38,872 bases of DNA from Bacteroidota bacterium (GCA_006218065.1 VBWE01000047.1:1-38872), one strand, 5' to 3'; counted from the stretch's first letter, positions 1 to 9,688 are shown. Numbers and translations: made by a program. Notes: generated by a model not told the origin, from the sequence alone.

Positions 1-231
1 GTTGAACCTCCTGTAGTTGTTGTCGTACTGCCACCTGTTGTGGTTGTTGTTCCTCCAGTTGTACTTCCACCGGTAGTTGCAGCAACATCAGTTCCGCCAG
101 TCGTAGTTGAACCTCCTGTAGTTGTTGTCGTGCCACCGCCCGTTGTGGTTGTTGTTCCTCCGGTAGTTGTAGCGACATCAGTTCCACCAGTGGTAGTTGA
201 TCCGCCGGCTGTCGTTGTTCCGGTACTTCCC
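1..231. repeat. In-frame tandem repeat encoding a Thr/Gly linker, period about 105 bp
   Basis: The first 105 bases recur from position 106 with a small internal deletion. Both copies begin gttgaacctcctgtagttg and end near an acatcagttcc segment. On the coding (-) strand they encode TTTTGG / GGTDVA-type linker. Shorter tracts of the same words occur at 817-888, 1198-1350 and 2245-2388. Repeats of this kind change copy number easily and often break assemblies, which may explain why the contig or window begins here. Confidence 0.75.
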
Positions 232-3200
232 TGCTCCACTTTTGCCGTCGCAGCCGAAGCCTGTTCTTCTTTCTGCGTTACAAGCGCATCCAGCACATCG
301 ATCTGCTGTTGGATTTTTACTTTTCGCTTCGGGTCTTTTGTTTTGTCAAGCTCGTCTTTTTTCGCCGTCAGTGTGCTGTCGAGGTCTTCCGCCCAATTGG
401 TCAGCAATTCCGCTTTTGCTTTATTCTTTCCGGGTCCGTCGGGCATCTGGTCGATGACACGGTCCTGGTCTTCGTAACGATCATTGATTGCGAGTTGCGG
501 ATTTTCTGCTGCCTGCTGATCTTTCTCCGTCTTCGCTTTAGCGGCGGCTGTTTCTGCGCTCTTCTGTTCCTTTTTTACTTCGGCGGATTTCGCTTCAAGT
601 TCTTTGATTTCTTTTTTCAGCGAGTCTTTCCGGGCTTTGTCCTTCTCCGCGGCAAGTTCGTTTTTCGTTTCGGCGATATCGTTGACTATCGCCACATTCC
701 AGTCCTGGAAAAGCTTCGCACGTTTTACTTCACGCGCATATTTGTCCGGTGTCGAATCTGCCGAAGCCATTTCCGTCGTAAACTTATCGTTGTACGATGG
801 TCCAACCGGGTCGGATGAACTTGTTCCACCGGTAGTCGTGGCCACATCCGTTCCACCGGTGGTAGTCGTTGTTCCGCCGGTCGCCGATGCAGTCTGCTGT
901 TTGATTTTATCCGCATTATTTTCACTGGTCCGCGCGAGTCCCTGGTTCTCCGCTTTCTGTTTTTCCAATTCCTTTATGCGGTCGCTGATGACTTTCTTTT
1001 CATCGCGGTTCTTTGTTTTGGACAGCTTCTCTTTTTGCTTCGCGATTTCCGAACCGGTGGCCTGCACCCATTCGTTGTACACTTCAGCCAGTTCCGATTC
1101 ACGTTCGTAAGGATCTGTTTTCGCCGTCGCCGTTTCTACCTGCTCGCTGAAACGGTTTTTCAATTCCGTCGCAGGATCAGCATCCGTTGAAACCGGGTCA
1201 GTACCTCCGCCGGTTGTAGTTCCACCCGTAGCAGCGACATCCGTTCCGCCGCCGGTTGTTGTCGTGCCTCCTGTTGTCGCTACGTCGGTTCCACCGGTAG
1301 TGGTGGTCGTTCCGCCTGTAGTACCTGCTGTTGTGGAACCGCCGGCAGGCCTGATCACGCGGGTTTCGGGGCTTTCCACAATCTCACGCTGGTAGTTCTT
1401 TACGTCGTCCTGTATCTTCTGGCGATCGGTAGCGGCGACTATGGGGGCGGATGTTCCGCTGTTTTTCTGGTCAACGAGTGCGTTCACCGCGTTTACCTGT
1501 TCGTTTACACCGGCCAGTTCGGATTCGAGTTGTCCTGTGCGCGTTTCTTTTTTATCGAGTTCTTTCTGTTTTTCTTTTTTCTCTTCCTGCAGATCGGTGA
1601 CCTGCGCGAGCATGCCGTCTCTCAGTTGCGGATCTTTTTCATTCTTCGCATCCGTTTCCAGTTTGCCGATCTGGCTATCTATATCCCTGATCTCTTCGCG
1701 GACATCTTCGGCGGCGGCTTTCGCTTTGGCGAGTTCCCCGGCTTTTTTCTCCGCTTCGGCCTGCAATCCTTTTACGGCGTCATCACTTTCATTGGAAGAA
1801 CCGGCGTACTCTTCCATTTTCTCGCGCTGTTTTTCCAGTTTATCCTGTTCAGGCCCGGATTTGATTTTGTTTTTTACAACATTTTCAAAACGCTTCGCAT
1901 AATCATCAGCGAGTTCCGCCTCTTCGCGCTTGCGCTTTACATCCCGCTCCGCACTTTCGTGAACGCTCCAGGCGGCTATCGTGGCATTTTCAGCAGCGTT
2001 GCCTTCTGCGCGAAGATCATCCGCTTTTTGCTGTTTTATTTTTTTCTGCTCCGGGTCGCTTTCTGCATCGGCTTCTCTTTGCGCTTCGTCGGCGGCATTA
2101 TTCTTCGATTTCGCTTCCTCGTTTTTCTTCACGGCAAAAGCCAAAGCCTGGTCGCGCAGGTTTTCTAAATCTTTTTCTTCGGCACGAAGGTCGGAGGCAT
2201 TGTCATACGCGGTTTTCACCATGTCGGCTTCCGAAATGCCCGTGCTTGTTCCGCCTGTCGTGGTAGTCGTTCCTCCGCCAGTAGTTGTCGCAACAGGATC
2301 CGATCCGCCCGATGTTGTGGCCGTTGTTCCGCCTGTAGTAGTGGTCGTGCTTCCACCGGTTGTCGTTGTTGTTCCTCCGCCCGTCAGGTCGATGGCGACT
2401 GGTGTGGTTACCGGTTTATCAAAATTGATTTCCAGCTTCGCTTTTTCTTTCAGGAAATCGGAAGAGAGGAAAGCGGTATCGTTATCAAACAAAGTATTGA
2501 CATACAGTTTTTGACCGCGCTCGGTATAGCCCATCTCCTGCCGGATGGTTTTGATTTCGTACTGCGTGGGCACGAGCATCAGCGCGGTCTGCGTTTCCAT
2601 GCCGCCTTTTTCAACCGTAACGTTGAACTTTCCGCCGTTCGGCAGGTTCATCAGGTAATCGCCGGTCTGTTCGTTGCTTTTGAATATGCCGACGAGTTCA
2701 TCGTTCTCTGCTTTCTTCACGATGATGCGCGCCTGGCGGTTGCCGTCTTCTTTCACTGGCTGGAAAACGCCTTTGATGAGGCAGAGTTCGACCGGGCGGC
2801 GATCCACGCGCACGCGGTAAACCGTCATTTTTCCCGAAGGGCTGCTGCGTGATGATGAAAAGTACGCGGTCTTCCCTTCGTAGTCGGTGATGTACAGGAT
2901 ATCGTCGTCCGGCGTATTGATGGCGAAATCCAGGTTCACCGGCTTGGTCCAGGTATTCGTTTCTTCGTTCAGCGTCGATTTGAAAATATCGTAACCGCCC
3001 ATGCTCGTGTGACCTTTCGAGCAGAAGTACAACGTTTTTCCGCTGGGATGCAGGAACGGGTAATCCTCATCGTATTCGGTATTGATCGGGTAACCGATAT
3101 TGGTGGGCTTGCCCCATTCACCGTTGGGCAGGCGGCGGGCTACGTAAATATCTTTCCCGTTGCTTTCGTCGTTTCCGTAACTCGAGAAATAGATTTCCGT

Positions 3201-3842
3201 TTTTTCCGTGGGAAGAAAAATCACGGAGCGTTCGTTTTTCTTTTTGTCCAGCGCCGTTTTAAAATCGTCGGGCTTCACGAGCAGTTTCCCGTTGTAATCG
3301 CTCAGGTCGTATGTCCTGAAAAATTCACTTTCGGAAAGTTCTTTTTTCTCGAGTACGGTGAGGTCGGTAATGGACTTGAGCAGTTTGCGCCCGGTGCGGC
3401 AGGATGCGATCTGGTTATCGACCTCCATTTTTTCCGCTTTTTTCGGACCGGCGACTTTTTTGTAGGTATCGTATGCTTTTATCGCATCCTCGAACCGGTA
3501 GTTCAAATGATACGCGCGGCCGAGGTAGAAGAAAACTTCTTTTTCGACCGAAGGATCTTTCGACGCTTTTTCGAGATAGCTCAGCGCCTGGTCTTTATCG
3601 CCCTGCGAGAAGAGCATACAAACGCCGAAACGGTAATTGTAATTCGGATCTTTGGGATACGTAGCCAGCAACTGCGAATACAGCTTAAATGCCTGGGGAT
3701 AATTGCCTTCGGTGAAACTGACTTCGGCGGCTTTTTTAACCTCTTCTTCGGTGCCCGGTTCTTTCTGGGCGGCAAAAACCTGCTCACCCGCCGACCAGAG
3801 CAGAATGCCGAATATTGCGGATAAAAGTAGCCTTACACGCAT
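1..3842 (-). CDS. Giant TPR-PD40-CRD protein with Thr/Gly linkers and coiled-coil modules, 3' end beyond window (partial)
   Basis: An open frame runs from an ATG at 3842 off the left edge (1280 codons, no stop). It begins with a signal peptide (MRVRLLLSAIFGILLWSAG). Residues about 30-150 are TPR-like (NYPQAFKLYSQLL, FYLGRAYHLNYRFEDAIKAY). Residues about 205-340 carry PD40/TolB-like propeller blades (EIYFSSYGNDESNGKDIY, TSMGGYDIFKS, GKTAYFSSSRSSPSG). Residues about 348-410 look like a carboxypeptidase-regulatory fold. This order matches the N-terminal part of PorE-type T9SS/envelope proteins, which end in an OmpA domain; whether OmpA follows here cannot be seen. From about residue 485 onward, Thr/Gly linkers (2245-2388, 1198-1350, 817-888, 1-231) alternate with Lys/Glu/Ala coiled-coil modules. 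Three modules share a Trp followed by a roughly 40-residue charged helix. Architecture is confident; the role is inferred to be cell-surface or periplasmic scaffolding. Confidence 0.85.
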   Translation of the reverse strand, partial: MRVRLLLSAIFGILLWSAGEQVFAAQKEPGTEEEVKKAAEVSFTEGNYPQAFKLYSQLLATYPKDPNYNYRFGVCMLFSQGDKDQALSYLEKASKDPSVEKEVFFYLGRAYHLNYRFEDAIKAYDTYKKVAGPKKAEKMEVDNQIASCRTGRKLLKSITDLTVLEKKELSESEFFRTYDLSDYNGKLLVKPDDFKTALDKKKNERSVIFLPTEKTEIYFSSYGNDESNGKDIYVARRLPNGEWGKPTNIGYPINTEYDEDYPFLHPSGKTLYFCSKGHTSMGGYDIFKSTLNEETNTWTKPVNLDFAINTPDDDILYITDYEGKTAYFSSSRSSPSGKMTVYRVRVDRRPVELCLIKGVFQPVKEDGNRQARIIVKKAENDELVGIFKSNEQTGDYLMNLPNGGKFNVTVEKGGMETQTALMLVPTQYEIKTIRQEMGYTERGQKLYVNTLFDNDTAFLSSDFLKEKAKLEINFDKPVTTPVAIDLTGGGTTTTTGGSTTTTTGGTTATTSGGSDPVATTTGGGTTTTTGGTSTGISEADMVKTAYDNASDLRAEEKDLENLRDQALAFAVKKNEEAKSKNNAADEAQREADAESDPEQKKIKQQKADDLRAEGNAAENATIAAWSVHESAERDVKRKREEAELADDYAKRFENVVKNKIKSGPEQDKLEKQREKMEEYAGSSNESDDAVKGLQAEAEKKAGELAKAKAAAEDVREEIRDIDSQIGKLETDAKNEKDPQLRDGMLAQVTDLQEEKKEKQKELDKKETRTGQLESELAGVNEQVNAVNALVDQKNSGTSAPIVAATDRQKIQDDVKNYQREIVESPETRVIRPAGGSTTAGTTGGTTTTTGGTDVATTGGTTTTGGGTDVAATGGTTTGGGTDPVSTDADPATELKNRFSEQVETATAKTDPYERESELAEVYNEWVQATGSEIAKQKEKLSKTKNRDEKKVISDRIKELEKQKAENQGLARTSENNADKIKQQTASATGGTTTTTGGTDVATTTGGTSSSDPVGPSYNDKFTTEMASADSTPDKYAREVKRAKLFQDWNVAIVNDIAETKNELAAEKDKARKDSLKKEIKELEAKSAEVKKEQKSAETAAAKAKTEKDQQAAENPQLAINDRYEDQDRVIDQMPDGPGKNKAKAELLTNWAEDLDSTLTAKKDELDKTKDPKRKVKIQQQIDVLDALVTQKEEQASAATAKVEQGSTGTTTAGGSTTTGGTDVATTTGGTTTTTGGGTTTTTGGSTTTGGTDVAATTGGSTTGGTTTTTGGSTTTTTGGS

Positions 3843-5194: not shown

Positions 5195-8100
5195 TTAATT
5201 TCCGCCCCCGTCGCCGGGTTCGCCGGACTGCTCGATCCGGAGCATCTTCTTGGTAAACAAGCCTTTATCCGCGGGATTACCCAGGATAAACCGGTAGGGC
5301 TTCCCTCCTTTTTCGGCTTCTTTTCTCCGCTTTTCGTCCTTCAGTTCCTTGATGATATTGTTGAAGGCATCGTTCGAAGAAATCGCTGTCATTACCCCGT
5401 TCACGTACTTGAAGTAATACCAGTTTCCGCCGTCCAGTTCGAAATAAATATGGAGTACATCGCCCCCCCGTTTACGTTCCAACTGGACCTTTCCGTCCAC
5501 AAATTTATTAATTTGATTCTTATTAATGTTACCCAGGCCCAGTTTACCTACCGAAATATACGACTTTGAGGCCTGGTGCCACTTCATTTTCAGGTCGTTA
5601 AAGAATAATGCGTACTTCAATTCGTCCGGGAATTTGCGGGGCGCTCCGTACAGGTTATACTGGGTAATCAGCTTGTCGGCCTTGTCTTTGCCCATCAGTT
5701 CGGTCAGGGCCCGCTGGAAGGTTGTGCTGGAGAAATCCGTCGGGGGCAGCGCCGTATTCGCATTGATCGCATCGGCCATTTTCTCCAGGCAATTGTCGTC
5801 GAAGAAGAAATCGACCACCATCACCATATTGAACACGGTACTGTCGGCGATGCTGAAATTGGTGGCATTCCCGATCGGCATGAGCACTACCTGCCCGAGG
5901 TCGGCGCCGAGGTTCATTTTTCCTTCGCCGGTAACCGTGCAGTTGGTGGTATGGAAAGCGATGTAATTGCCCGGCAGCGAGCGTTCCACCAATTTTTCCT
6001 TGTTCGAAATACGGTATTCGCGCGAGTTTTTATCGAAAACCAGGAAGCCGGTGGCGGTAATCACTTTTACGTCGCTGCGCGCGCGCTGCGGGGAAAGGAA
6101 CGCGGAATAGATATGCGTGGAATCCACGGTACTCATGATACCCAGCGCGACGGGCACGTTTTCTTCGTTGGCCGGAACTTCGCCCACAGGGATCATGATC
6201 TGCAGCGGATCCACCTCGCCTTTGAACTTCATGCGGCTTTTCCCGATGGAGCAATCGTGCTGGAGCTGCGTGGTTCCGTCGAATACGAGGAACTGGTTAT
6301 TCGCCGCCAAGACCACTTTCCCGCGATAGTCGAACGCCGGGCTGAGCATGAATTTCGCGGTATCGGCGATCGATCCTTCAGCATACGTCTGACCGCTGGT
6401 ATCGGGCGTTACTTTGGCGAAATGGATAATCTGCTCGCCTTTATTCTCGTCAATATAAGCGTAATCGGCGACGGCTTCGTATGATTTTTTCGCGTAAATA
6501 TTTACGGTCGCGTTGAACAGTTTGTGGTACCGGGTAATGGCGTTGGCTGTGATTTCTGCGCTTTCGAGTGTTTTCATGTGCGCGTTCTTTTCGATGATCA
6601 CGTCGCCTTTGTACGGTTTGATCTCGGCGTCGGCCACGAGAATCTTTTTTACATCTTCTGCAGAAATGATGTAGTTCTTCAGATCGTATTTCGCACGCGG
6701 AGCGTTGAAGCGCAGGGAATCCTGTTTCGGGTGAATGGAAATGAATTCCGGTCCTTCGATATTGATTTCCGCCTGGCTGGGTTTCGGTTTTCCGCCCAGT
6801 TCGATTTCGCCTTTGTCCATAAACCATTTGAACTGGTCCATGTAACAGATGTACTGGTTCACGGGGAATTCCACGATCGATCCTTTTCCGTTGGCTTTGA
6901 ATTCGCCTTCGCGTTTTTCAAAATCGAGATGCGCATTCATGTTCTTGGTATCGAACGCGAGTCCCGCCAGTTCAAGCGCTTTCAGGCGGAAGTTGGCCGT
7001 GTCGGCATCCACCACGTGCTGTTTGAACACCATGTCTTTCGAATCCATTTCAGCCGTGGCGAATTCCAGCAAACCGTTGCCCGAAAGTTCCTGCGGGGTA
7101 AGCGTAAGCGTTCCGCCGAAAGATGAACTGCCGTCGTACATGCTGAATTTTTTCTCTTTGCTGGTCACCTGCATATTGTCTCTCTTCGGCAGGTAGTGCA
7201 GCTGCACGTTTTCGCCTTTCACGTTCGGGTATTCCGTTTTCCCGCCCTTCTGTTCTTTCATATCGAAAACCTGGGCCACGCCGTTCACTTCGTCCGGGAA
7301 GAACAGGAAGTCATTCGATTCCACGTGCGAAGTCAGGTAATCGATAGAACCTTCCCCGTGAAGTCCCTGGTTACTGAGGTGGAACGTATTGTTGAATTTC
7401 GCTTTGCTGCCGTAGTTGGCCAGGCCCGCCGGCGGCGATTTCCGGTCGAAGCCCAGCGAATAATCGGGCATCAGGCGAAGCGTATCGCGCATTTCGGGGA
7501 AAATACCGGCCGATTTAAACGTACCGAGGAACTTCAATCCTTCGTTCGAGAAGTTATCCAGCGAGTCGATTGTAAACGGATCGAGTTTGAAATAAAAATC
7601 ATCGCGTTTGTACACGCTTTTGTGAATAGTCGGCCGGTCGTAATAAACGAACGATTCTTTATTCGAAGTGAACGTCGGGTATTTCGCATACGGTTTCAGT
7701 CCTGATTTATTCGCGGGCAAATCGATGAGCAGTTCGCCGTTCAGGTTTTCGATCACGCTTTTTACTTTTACCTGGATGGGCCGGCCTTTGGGATCGTTCG
7801 GGTCGGGTTTGTCACCGTCCACCCAGATCCGCACGGAATCCACGTTGTCCAGCTTGAGTTTAAACGCATCGTAGTCGAACAGGAACTGCTTCCCGTAATA
7901 GTCGAAACGGCCGGCCATGATGGAGCCCTGGAAGGTGAAGTTCCGGTTCTTCTTCAGGATGAGTTTATCCTCGGCGGGGAAAACCACCACGTTCTGCGAA
8001 TCGCTGAGCGCGACTTCTTTCACACCGAAAATCGTCAGGTCGTTGTTCAGCAGGTTTAGCGAGGCGTTTGCCGTTCCGGGCTGCACTTTCGAACGGAAAT

Positions 8101-9688
8101 CGAGTACGTCGTAATCCACCTGCTTGGCGCGGGCCAGCGTATAACTGAAGAGTTTATCCTTGACCGTGATTTCGTCGTCGGGAATATCGAACATGATAAA
8201 GCCCGCATTGGACAATGGAACCAGCGCCGGGCGTAAATTCTCGGGCGTGATTTTCCAGAAGCTGGCCAGTTGCAAAACGGTGAATGTCCGTACATCGCCG
8301 TTCTTCTTCACGAAGTCGCGGATACGGATCAGCGGGTGCACGGCATCCATGCCCTGGAGCTTATCGTACAGGTACTGGCGATAATAATTACTAGACTGGA
8401 ACTGCGCTTCACCGAGCGAACTGCCCGGCGTGGTTTGCAGGATGATCCGCGGTTCGTCCGTTTTCCAGACGATACGTTCCACATCGATATCCACCTGGTG
8501 GTAGGAATCGTAGTACGGTGTTGCCGTCGCCCCATCGCCGCTGCGGTACAGGACAACCTTATTGCTGTCGATGAAATATTTGAAATCGAGGCCGGGGTGG
8601 AAAATGGAATCTTTATCGAGGCTGAACCGCACCGAAGCATCCGGACAGGTCAAACGTTCTTTCGTAATCACAAAACTTTTCCCTTCCAGGCGGAGGAAGT
8701 CCTTGTTGTTGCGTTTGAAAACGACGAAAGCGCGGTTCTCTTTATTTCCCGAGCCGATAAAGCGTGCACCGACCTGCGTAAAACCGCCTTCAAAATCAAC
8801 ATTCGGGAAAAGCGACTTGATCTGGTAACGCTGCGAATACGATTCGAAACGCGGGTAACTCGCATTTTTATCGGAAGCGTCGGCCACTATTTTTTCGCTG
8901 AGCTTGCCGAGCAGCGGCTTTCCCTGGAAGTAATTTTTATTGTAGAATATGGCCGAATCCGCTTCGTAGCCGCCGCTTTTCAGGGTGATCCTGTAATTTT
9001 TCAGTTCGGCTTTCAGTTCCTCTTCCGGGATTCCGACGCGGCGCCAGTTTACTTTCCCGTTTTTCCCGACCCAGGTTCCGGTTGACGGGAAATACGTTCC
9101 CGAAGTATTGTAAATGATGGAACTGTCGCCTTTAGCTAAGCATTTCAGCGTGAGCGAACCGAATTTCACCATGGGTACGCTGTCGCAGATGATCATCCAG
9201 TTGGCGTTATCCGCTTTCCACAAAGTCGTCTGCGATTTGTAAAACGTATTGTCGGCAAAAAGCGTTTCGCTCATGGCCAGGTAATCCGCAAAATATTTAT
9301 TCGATTTACCGGCTGCCAGCTTATCGAAGCAGATCTGCCAGTCGTTCCAGCTTCCGCCGGAAAGATTATTGTCCACGAAGGATTTGACCGCGTTCAGGTA
9401 GTTGCGGAACTCGGGCGTAGGCTTGAAACGCCGTTTGAGCATCTGGTTGCAGTTGCGGTAGATGTACTGCTTTTTATAATCGTCTATTTTATTGGTAATC
9501 CAGTAGAGTTTGCTGAATTCCTCGACGTAATCTTTTCCTTCTTTTTTCTCGGCAGACTCAAAATAGCTTTGCAGTTCCTCGATAAACTTTACCGGGTCTT
9601 CGCTGAAACTTTTGATTTGTGACTGGGCCTGCAGGGCGGGGATTCCGCTGCAAAGCAATACCAGGGTTACAATCGCCTTCCTTATCAT
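5195..9688 (-). CDS. Very large secreted protein of unknown function (1497 aa)
   Basis: Begins with a clear signal peptide (MIRKAIVTLVLLCSGIPALQA, cleavage before Q-S). The mature part is about 1475 aa, rich in beta-strand-like alternation with many Asp/Lys/Tyr/Phe, no internal transmembrane helices, and a Lys/Glu-rich then Gly-rich end (GEPGDGGGN). Residues about 840-1200 contain serial short strands (KGDVIIEKNAHM, GKVVLAANNQFLVFDGTTQL) that loosely resemble stacked beta-sheet (OstA/LptA-like) folds; this is an impression only. No T9SS tail, lipobox or catalytic motif was found. Its ATG overlaps the prmA stop by four bases (ATGA), so it is translationally coupled to prmA, with plsY downstream. 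I do not recognise a characterised family. Confidence 0.85.
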   Translation of the reverse strand: MIRKAIVTLVLLCSGIPALQAQSQIKSFSEDPVKFIEELQSYFESAEKKEGKDYVEEFSKLYWITNKIDDYKKQYIYRNCNQMLKRRFKPTPEFRNYLNAVKSFVDNNLSGGSWNDWQICFDKLAAGKSNKYFADYLAMSETLFADNTFYKSQTTLWKADNANWMIICDSVPMVKFGSLTLKCLAKGDSSIIYNTSGTYFPSTGTWVGKNGKVNWRRVGIPEEELKAELKNYRITLKSGGYEADSAIFYNKNYFQGKPLLGKLSEKIVADASDKNASYPRFESYSQRYQIKSLFPNVDFEGGFTQVGARFIGSGNKENRAFVVFKRNNKDFLRLEGKSFVITKERLTCPDASVRFSLDKDSIFHPGLDFKYFIDSNKVVLYRSGDGATATPYYDSYHQVDIDVERIVWKTDEPRIILQTTPGSSLGEAQFQSSNYYRQYLYDKLQGMDAVHPLIRIRDFVKKNGDVRTFTVLQLASFWKITPENLRPALVPLSNAGFIMFDIPDDEITVKDKLFSYTLARAKQVDYDVLDFRSKVQPGTANASLNLLNNDLTIFGVKEVALSDSQNVVVFPAEDKLILKKNRNFTFQGSIMAGRFDYYGKQFLFDYDAFKLKLDNVDSVRIWVDGDKPDPNDPKGRPIQVKVKSVIENLNGELLIDLPANKSGLKPYAKYPTFTSNKESFVYYDRPTIHKSVYKRDDFYFKLDPFTIDSLDNFSNEGLKFLGTFKSAGIFPEMRDTLRLMPDYSLGFDRKSPPAGLANYGSKAKFNNTFHLSNQGLHGEGSIDYLTSHVESNDFLFFPDEVNGVAQVFDMKEQKGGKTEYPNVKGENVQLHYLPKRDNMQVTSKEKKFSMYDGSSSFGGTLTLTPQELSGNGLLEFATAEMDSKDMVFKQHVVDADTANFRLKALELAGLAFDTKNMNAHLDFEKREGEFKANGKGSIVEFPVNQYICYMDQFKWFMDKGEIELGGKPKPSQAEINIEGPEFISIHPKQDSLRFNAPRAKYDLKNYIISAEDVKKILVADAEIKPYKGDVIIEKNAHMKTLESAEITANAITRYHKLFNATVNIYAKKSYEAVADYAYIDENKGEQIIHFAKVTPDTSGQTYAEGSIADTAKFMLSPAFDYRGKVVLAANNQFLVFDGTTQLQHDCSIGKSRMKFKGEVDPLQIMIPVGEVPANEENVPVALGIMSTVDSTHIYSAFLSPQRARSDVKVITATGFLVFDKNSREYRISNKEKLVERSLPGNYIAFHTTNCTVTGEGKMNLGADLGQVVLMPIGNATNFSIADSTVFNMVMVVDFFFDDNCLEKMADAINANTALPPTDFSSTTFQRALTELMGKDKADKLITQYNLYGAPRKFPDELKYALFFNDLKMKWHQASKSYISVGKLGLGNINKNQINKFVDGKVQLERKRGGDVLHIYFELDGGNWYYFKYVNGVMTAISSNDAFNNIIKELKDEKRRKEAEKGGKPYRFILGNPADKGLFTKKMLRIEQSGEPGDGGGN

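Follow-up and report, generated by a model that had tools for sequence, protein, structure and literature searches.

The window, a stretch of 38,872 nucleotides from a Bacteroidota bacterium (GCA_006218065.1, VBWE01000047.1:1-38872; contig C76), begins with a minus-strand open reading frame (3..3842) of 1280 amino acid residues that is still open at the window edge. All window coordinates of the protein given below lie on the minus strand. The encoded protein starts with a type I signal peptide that has no lipobox cysteine (residues 1-24, 3771..3842), as read from the sequence. It is followed by a TPR region (residues 35-132, 3447..3740) matched by the Pfam models TPR_19, TPR_14 and TPR_16, and by a PD40-type beta-propeller (residues 205-346, 2805..3230) found with PD40 at E 4e-10 and with hhalign at 100% probability. 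Next comes a CRD-like domain (residues 352-425, 2568..2789), which hhalign aligned to a set of PorE-like proteins and which CarboxypepD_reg matched in 7 of 16 relatives. The order of TPR, propeller and CRD, given by Pfam and hhalign, is that of PorE, a protein of the type IX secretion system (T9SS) of P. gingivalis.

The PorE-like N-terminal head claimed in the first-pass annotation was borne out by profile-profile comparison. With hhalign, almost the whole head was aligned to six PorE/CHU_0125-like OmpA proteins of the same genome (100% probability, E 3e-54). In NCBIfam, the best match of the window part was CHU_0125 (NF053607) with 113 bits, far under the cut-off of 620, and PorE (NF052230) reached 78.1 bits, below its cut-off of 600. 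The propeller was about 90-100 residues shorter than in the PorE/CHU_0125-like proteins of the same genome, as seen from a gap in the hhalign alignment, and the shortening was common to the family alignment. Since the propeller of PorE is five-bladed (PMC7192894), a gap of this size means that part of it appears to be absent from the window protein. The alignment of the head stopped at the start of the paralogues' OmpA domain. A conserved segment behind the CRD (residues 440-480, 2403..2525) was aligned by hhalign with this OmpA start and is possibly a vestige of an OmpA domain. A clear lipobox was found neither in the window protein nor in any of about 60 relatives. The protein is thus predicted to carry a type I signal peptide and not to be a lipoprotein, in contrast to PorE of P. 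gingivalis, which has a lipobox. The PorE homologues of F. johnsoniae are likewise reported to have none (PMC7192894).

Thr/Gly linkers and helical units of the stalk

From about residue 485 to the window edge, stretches with 70-90% Thr/Gly/Ser alternated with stretches with 30-60% charged residues, which confirmed by composition the long alternation of Thr/Gly linkers and charged helices described earlier. The linkers were located at residues 488-535 (linker 1, 2238..2381), 832-888 (linker 2, 1179..1349), 985-1015 (linker 3, 798..890) and 1208-1280 (linker 4, 3..221), where linker 4 runs past the window edge. The helical parts were modelled with AlphaFold. A first unit (residues 538-657, 1872..2231) consists of two helices of about 56 and 61 residues with a pLDDT of about 90, and a second one is a helical hairpin (residues 685-795, 1458..1790). 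Three modules with a tryptophan follow: module A (NEWVQATG, residues 890-987, 882..1175), module B (QDWNVAIV, residues 1017-1113, 504..794) and module C (TNWAEDLD, residues 1115-1207, 222..500), with the Trp at residues 925, 1048 and 1150, respectively.

The three modules are copies of a real repeat. Their pairwise local alignment scores were 121, 99 and 73, as compared to means of 35-44 for composition shuffles (6-10 SD), and an iterated module HMM detected A, B and C with E 8e-19, 3e-18 and 7e-17. With the same HMM, 42 of 61 family proteins together yielded 120 copies, as against none from a decoy set four times larger than the family set. The tryptophan, which had been named among the features shared by the three modules, is kept in just about 55% of the family's copies and is missing from a fourth, diverged copy (residues 691-758, E 2e-13) that lies mostly inside the second hairpin and had been overlooked.

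The model of the stalk had a mean pLDDT of 78 and a pTM of 0.43. The helical segments were confident and the Thr/Gly linkers disordered, with a pLDDT below 50 in linkers 2 and 3; because of the low pTM, the relative placement of the units is not predicted. Each Trp module was modelled as a short helix and, behind it, a unit of two longer helices of about 32 and 42 residues with a break of three residues (17, 32 and 42 residues in module A). In the structure comparison, the unit at residues 685-795 matched CT398, the dynein stalk and SMC arms and is an antiparallel hairpin. These matches are generic antiparallel hairpins and no homology is claimed. From the same helix pattern, the Trp modules probably form antiparallel hairpins as well. 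A search of the rod against known structures gave no Foldseek match at E 0.001. One long, continuous and extensible coiled-coil rod, as proposed earlier, was not supported, since the AlphaFold model breaks the stalk into helical units that are chained by disordered Thr/Gly linkers. We also searched for the Bacteroidetes O-glycosylation motif D-S/T-A/I/L/V/M/T and found five scattered sites, none of them inside the Thr/Gly-rich linkers.

Continuation on contig C35 and the SPOR domains

The open reading frame of the window is the 5' fragment of a longer gene. When the first 600 bases of the window were compared with the other contigs of the same genome, only C35 was matched, at its extreme end, with an exact overlap of 56 bp (window 1..56, identical to the reverse complement of C35:1-56). 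On C35 the gene continues in frame on the plus strand (locus L006, C35:1-2082) with a helical segment, three SPOR domains and a stop codon, and the joined protein has 1955 residues without an internal stop. Neither a frame break at the edge nor a C-terminus devoid of an anchor, which the first-pass annotation had named as the two dangers to its proposal, was encountered.

A 75-bp, nearly identical repeat coding for Thr/Gly spans the contig break (window 1-208, L006:1-116). Linker repeats may therefore be collapsed in the assembly and their real number perhaps undercounted. For the same reason, contig ends could have been mispaired, and the join could be an artefact that connects the window gene to the SPOR end of a different gene. 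We regard this as very improbable, because the overlap is exact and in frame, no contig other than C35 was matched, and about 40 of 60 related loci have an uninterrupted gene with the same full layout, mostly coding for 1660-2400 residues. In addition, the flanking genes are conserved on both sides. Upstream in the relatives we found prmA (21 loci), a gene for a 1497-residue protein (24 loci) and plsY (20 loci), and directly downstream the gene of an M48 peptidase (20 loci). This is the order given by C76 plus C35, and the conservation on both sides in about 20 relatives supports the join. The contigs of many relatives likewise end within this gene.

The neighbours of the gene are envelope and housekeeping genes. 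The 1497-residue protein (window 5195-9688, minus strand) has a signal peptide and is encoded between prmA and plsY. It keeps its place upstream in the relatives, and it had no match in Pfam or NCBIfam and none that was convincing in the PDB. The M48 metallopeptidase (L006:2521-3345) has a lipobox-like signal (LGLSC) and is a candidate functional partner of the SPOR protein.

The SPOR domains occupy residues 1546-1625, 1698-1777 and 1864-1949 of the joined protein and are encoded on the plus strand of C35. In the window protein itself, PF05036 (SPOR) matched the C-terminal part with a modest 23.6 bits, above the cut-off of 21. SPOR was matched in 36 of 37 relatives, with a best E of 9e-14, and in an iterated search 40 of the 44 complete proteins had exactly three copies, three had two and one had a single copy. 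An OmpA domain was absent from both halves of the protein in Pfam. The C-terminus of a relative (L008) was then modelled by AlphaFold with a 37-row alignment and showed three alpha/beta domains, mostly with a pLDDT above 90, separated by disordered linkers. Its first structural neighbour was the SPOR domain of CwlC (Z 7.7, rmsd 2.3, 70 residues aligned). The SPOR domain of RlpA with denuded glycan (Z 7.2) and those of DamX, DedD and FtsN were also found, so that the matches listed include five different SPOR proteins. The Z scores are middling, and we accept the SPOR fold because SPOR entries recur and the sequence matches agree. A sequence profile likewise placed CwlC first.

In RlpA, Q270, A273, F274 and N276 contact the glycan (PMC6895207), and by our reading of the motif VQVGAFRN, the first SPOR copy keeps residues at the corresponding positions. 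The glutamine of QxGAF and the aromatic residue are kept in all three copies, where the correspondence to RlpA was read by eye. In the same way, an arginine that is likely equivalent to R309 of RlpA was read in copies 1 and 2 and apparently not in copy 3. SPOR domains bind glycan without peptide stems, which is produced by amidases and enriched at the septum (PMC6895207). The envelope anchor expected beyond the edge thus exists, and its supposed identity as OmpA was wrong: by its sequence matches, the AlphaFold model and the PDB neighbours, it is predicted to consist of three SPOR domains instead.

FtsN, DamX, DedD, RlpA and CwlC share with the window protein the SPOR fold and, as read by eye, a putative glycan-contact motif of the QxGAF type, whereas a PorE head is not known from any of them. 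They usually have just one SPOR domain, combined with different partner domains.

Paralogues and distribution of the family

Known PorE runs directly from the CRD (residues 441-527) into OmpA (residues 534-668; PMC7192894), as the first-pass annotation had stated. The genome analysed here has many PorE-like genes, and the proteins end in OmpA, in nothing recognisable or in SPOR. At least two of these paralogues end in the same SPOR subtype as the window protein. One of them (C31, L114:454-3276) has 941 residues and proceeds from the PorE head directly to three SPOR domains; second-best matches of 968-1008 residues in several relatives may be of this kind. The other (C79, L109:391-2499) has 703 residues and a PorE-like head with one SPOR domain in the place of OmpA. 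Both resemble the window protein in the replacement of OmpA and differ from it in that they have no long stalk, a longer propeller region and a separate position in the tree. A third protein (C47, L108:1350-3539) of 730 residues has a PorE-like head and one more diverged SPOR domain, found with the Pfam model only. Its gene lies downstream of a PorP-family gene, and the C38 paralogue also adjoins a PorP gene. Four tandem PorE-like genes on C53 (L111:639-9305) code for two proteins ending in OmpA, one ending in an OmpA-like domain and one without a recognisable anchor.

In the tree, the window family formed a clade (100/99) and the SPOR-bearing paralogues another one; a single joint clade of all SPOR-bearing proteins was not rejected (p-AU 0.32). 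Since paralogues of the C31 and C79 type occur in the same genome, the replacement of OmpA by SPOR is wider than the window gene. The exchange thus took place at least once in this lineage, and of the forms compared here the window gene is the most elaborate.

A strong match to the gene was found in each of 11 further genomes sampled from the family of the own genome and in 37 of 59 relatives, the own genome counted. In an even, phylum-wide sample (n=198), a strong match was obtained only in the own genome and one other, and the weaker matches were short paralogues. The gene is lineage-restricted yet not rare. A comparison of the module number among relatives, as proposed earlier, gave 0 to 6 detected modules, and the number of SPOR domains stayed at three. 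The layout is not confined to one strain and defines a family spread through the Bacteroidia. A fixed number of SPOR domains next to a variable stalk suggests that function centres on the triple anchor, with the stalk as a spacer whose length is loosely constrained. The largest member observed (L047:871-11736) has 3621 residues, about 2700 of them in the stalk, and only two detected SPOR domains.

Possible functions of the protein

With a probability of roughly 0.65, we read the open reading frame of the window as coding for the N-terminal two thirds of a periplasmic tether of 1955 residues that combines a PorE-family head, a jointed stalk and a triple SPOR wall anchor. By analogy with PorE, which binds the outer-membrane beta-barrel PorP (PMC9143113), the head would dock to an outer-membrane protein. 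The three SPOR domains would jointly hold the peptidoglycan, most likely at glycan strands that have been stripped of their peptide stems. The jointed stalk of about 1000 residues, with its helical units and disordered linkers, would provide a long and compliant reach. The sequence data are best read as a long, flexible connection between a partner in the outer membrane and peptidoglycan that is probably denuded. PorE itself binds peptidoglycan (PMC7192894) and has its binding module at the C-terminus, as is predicted for the window protein. It differs from the window protein, which has neither OmpA nor a lipobox, a propeller that is about 90-100 residues shorter, about 1000 extra residues and three SPOR domains. 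CHU_0125 of C. hutchinsonii shares the TPR-PD40 head and likely the link from the outer membrane to the wall, whereas it has only 656 residues and an OmpA domain (PMC5891637), which the window protein does not have.

Such a tether might work at the division site, where the SPOR domains would bind septal denuded glycan and the protein would pull or hold the outer membrane at the constriction, the job of Tol-Pal elsewhere. SPOR domains are established modules for targeting to the septum and bind glycan denuded by amidases (PMC6895207), the three copies suggest avidity, the genome has one Amidase_3 enzyme with a SPOR domain of its own, and the head homologue CHU_0125 is required for the integrity of the outer membrane (PMC5891637). 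We hold this role to be possible and rather doubtful, as no division genes lie beside the window gene, the SPOR subtype is unlike that of the genome's canonical SPOR domains, and the patchy occurrence of the gene across the phylum speaks against a role in division that is universal. An accessory role in the T9SS or in surface anchoring is about as tentative. Here, the head would hold a PorP/SprF-like barrel and the SPOR domains would fix the complex to the wall, like PorE does for PorP-PG1035. The homology of the head to PorE, the known PorE-PorP complex (PMC9143113), the presence in the genome of 23 genes that score above the PorP-family cut-off and of at least 150 sorting domains of the T9SS, and the C47 and C38 paralogues next to PorP genes are in line with this role. 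Against it, no PorP match was obtained on C76 or C35 and hence there is none next to the window gene, the score of 78 bits is far below the PorE family cut-off of 600, and the propeller is partly missing.

A more speculative and rather unlikely extension of the tether reading is a Bacteroidota-specific class of septal tethers, in which the OmpA anchor of a PorE-type head has given way to a trivalent SPOR anchor carried by a long jointed stalk. Through these proteins, septal peptidoglycan processed by amidases might be coupled to the constriction of the outer membrane or to the positioning of PorP-type surface complexes.

The predicted variant of the PorE-type tether with a SPOR anchor is described here as a family. 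No description of a PorE-type protein with SPOR domains was found in the titles and abstracts of the searchable literature, a weak result because subscription journals and preprints were covered only thinly. The Bacteroidota have numerous PorE-like proteins, which are taken to be wall anchors of the OmpA type. As this family shows, a wall-binding module of another kind and of different ligand preference can take the place of that anchor, and the head and the wall anchor can move apart by about 1000 residues. The PorE head alone is thus an unsafe basis for inferring how a protein is targeted to the wall. In conclusion, the tether offers a concrete candidate mechanism by which some Bacteroidota could connect the outer membrane with particular zones of the cell wall.
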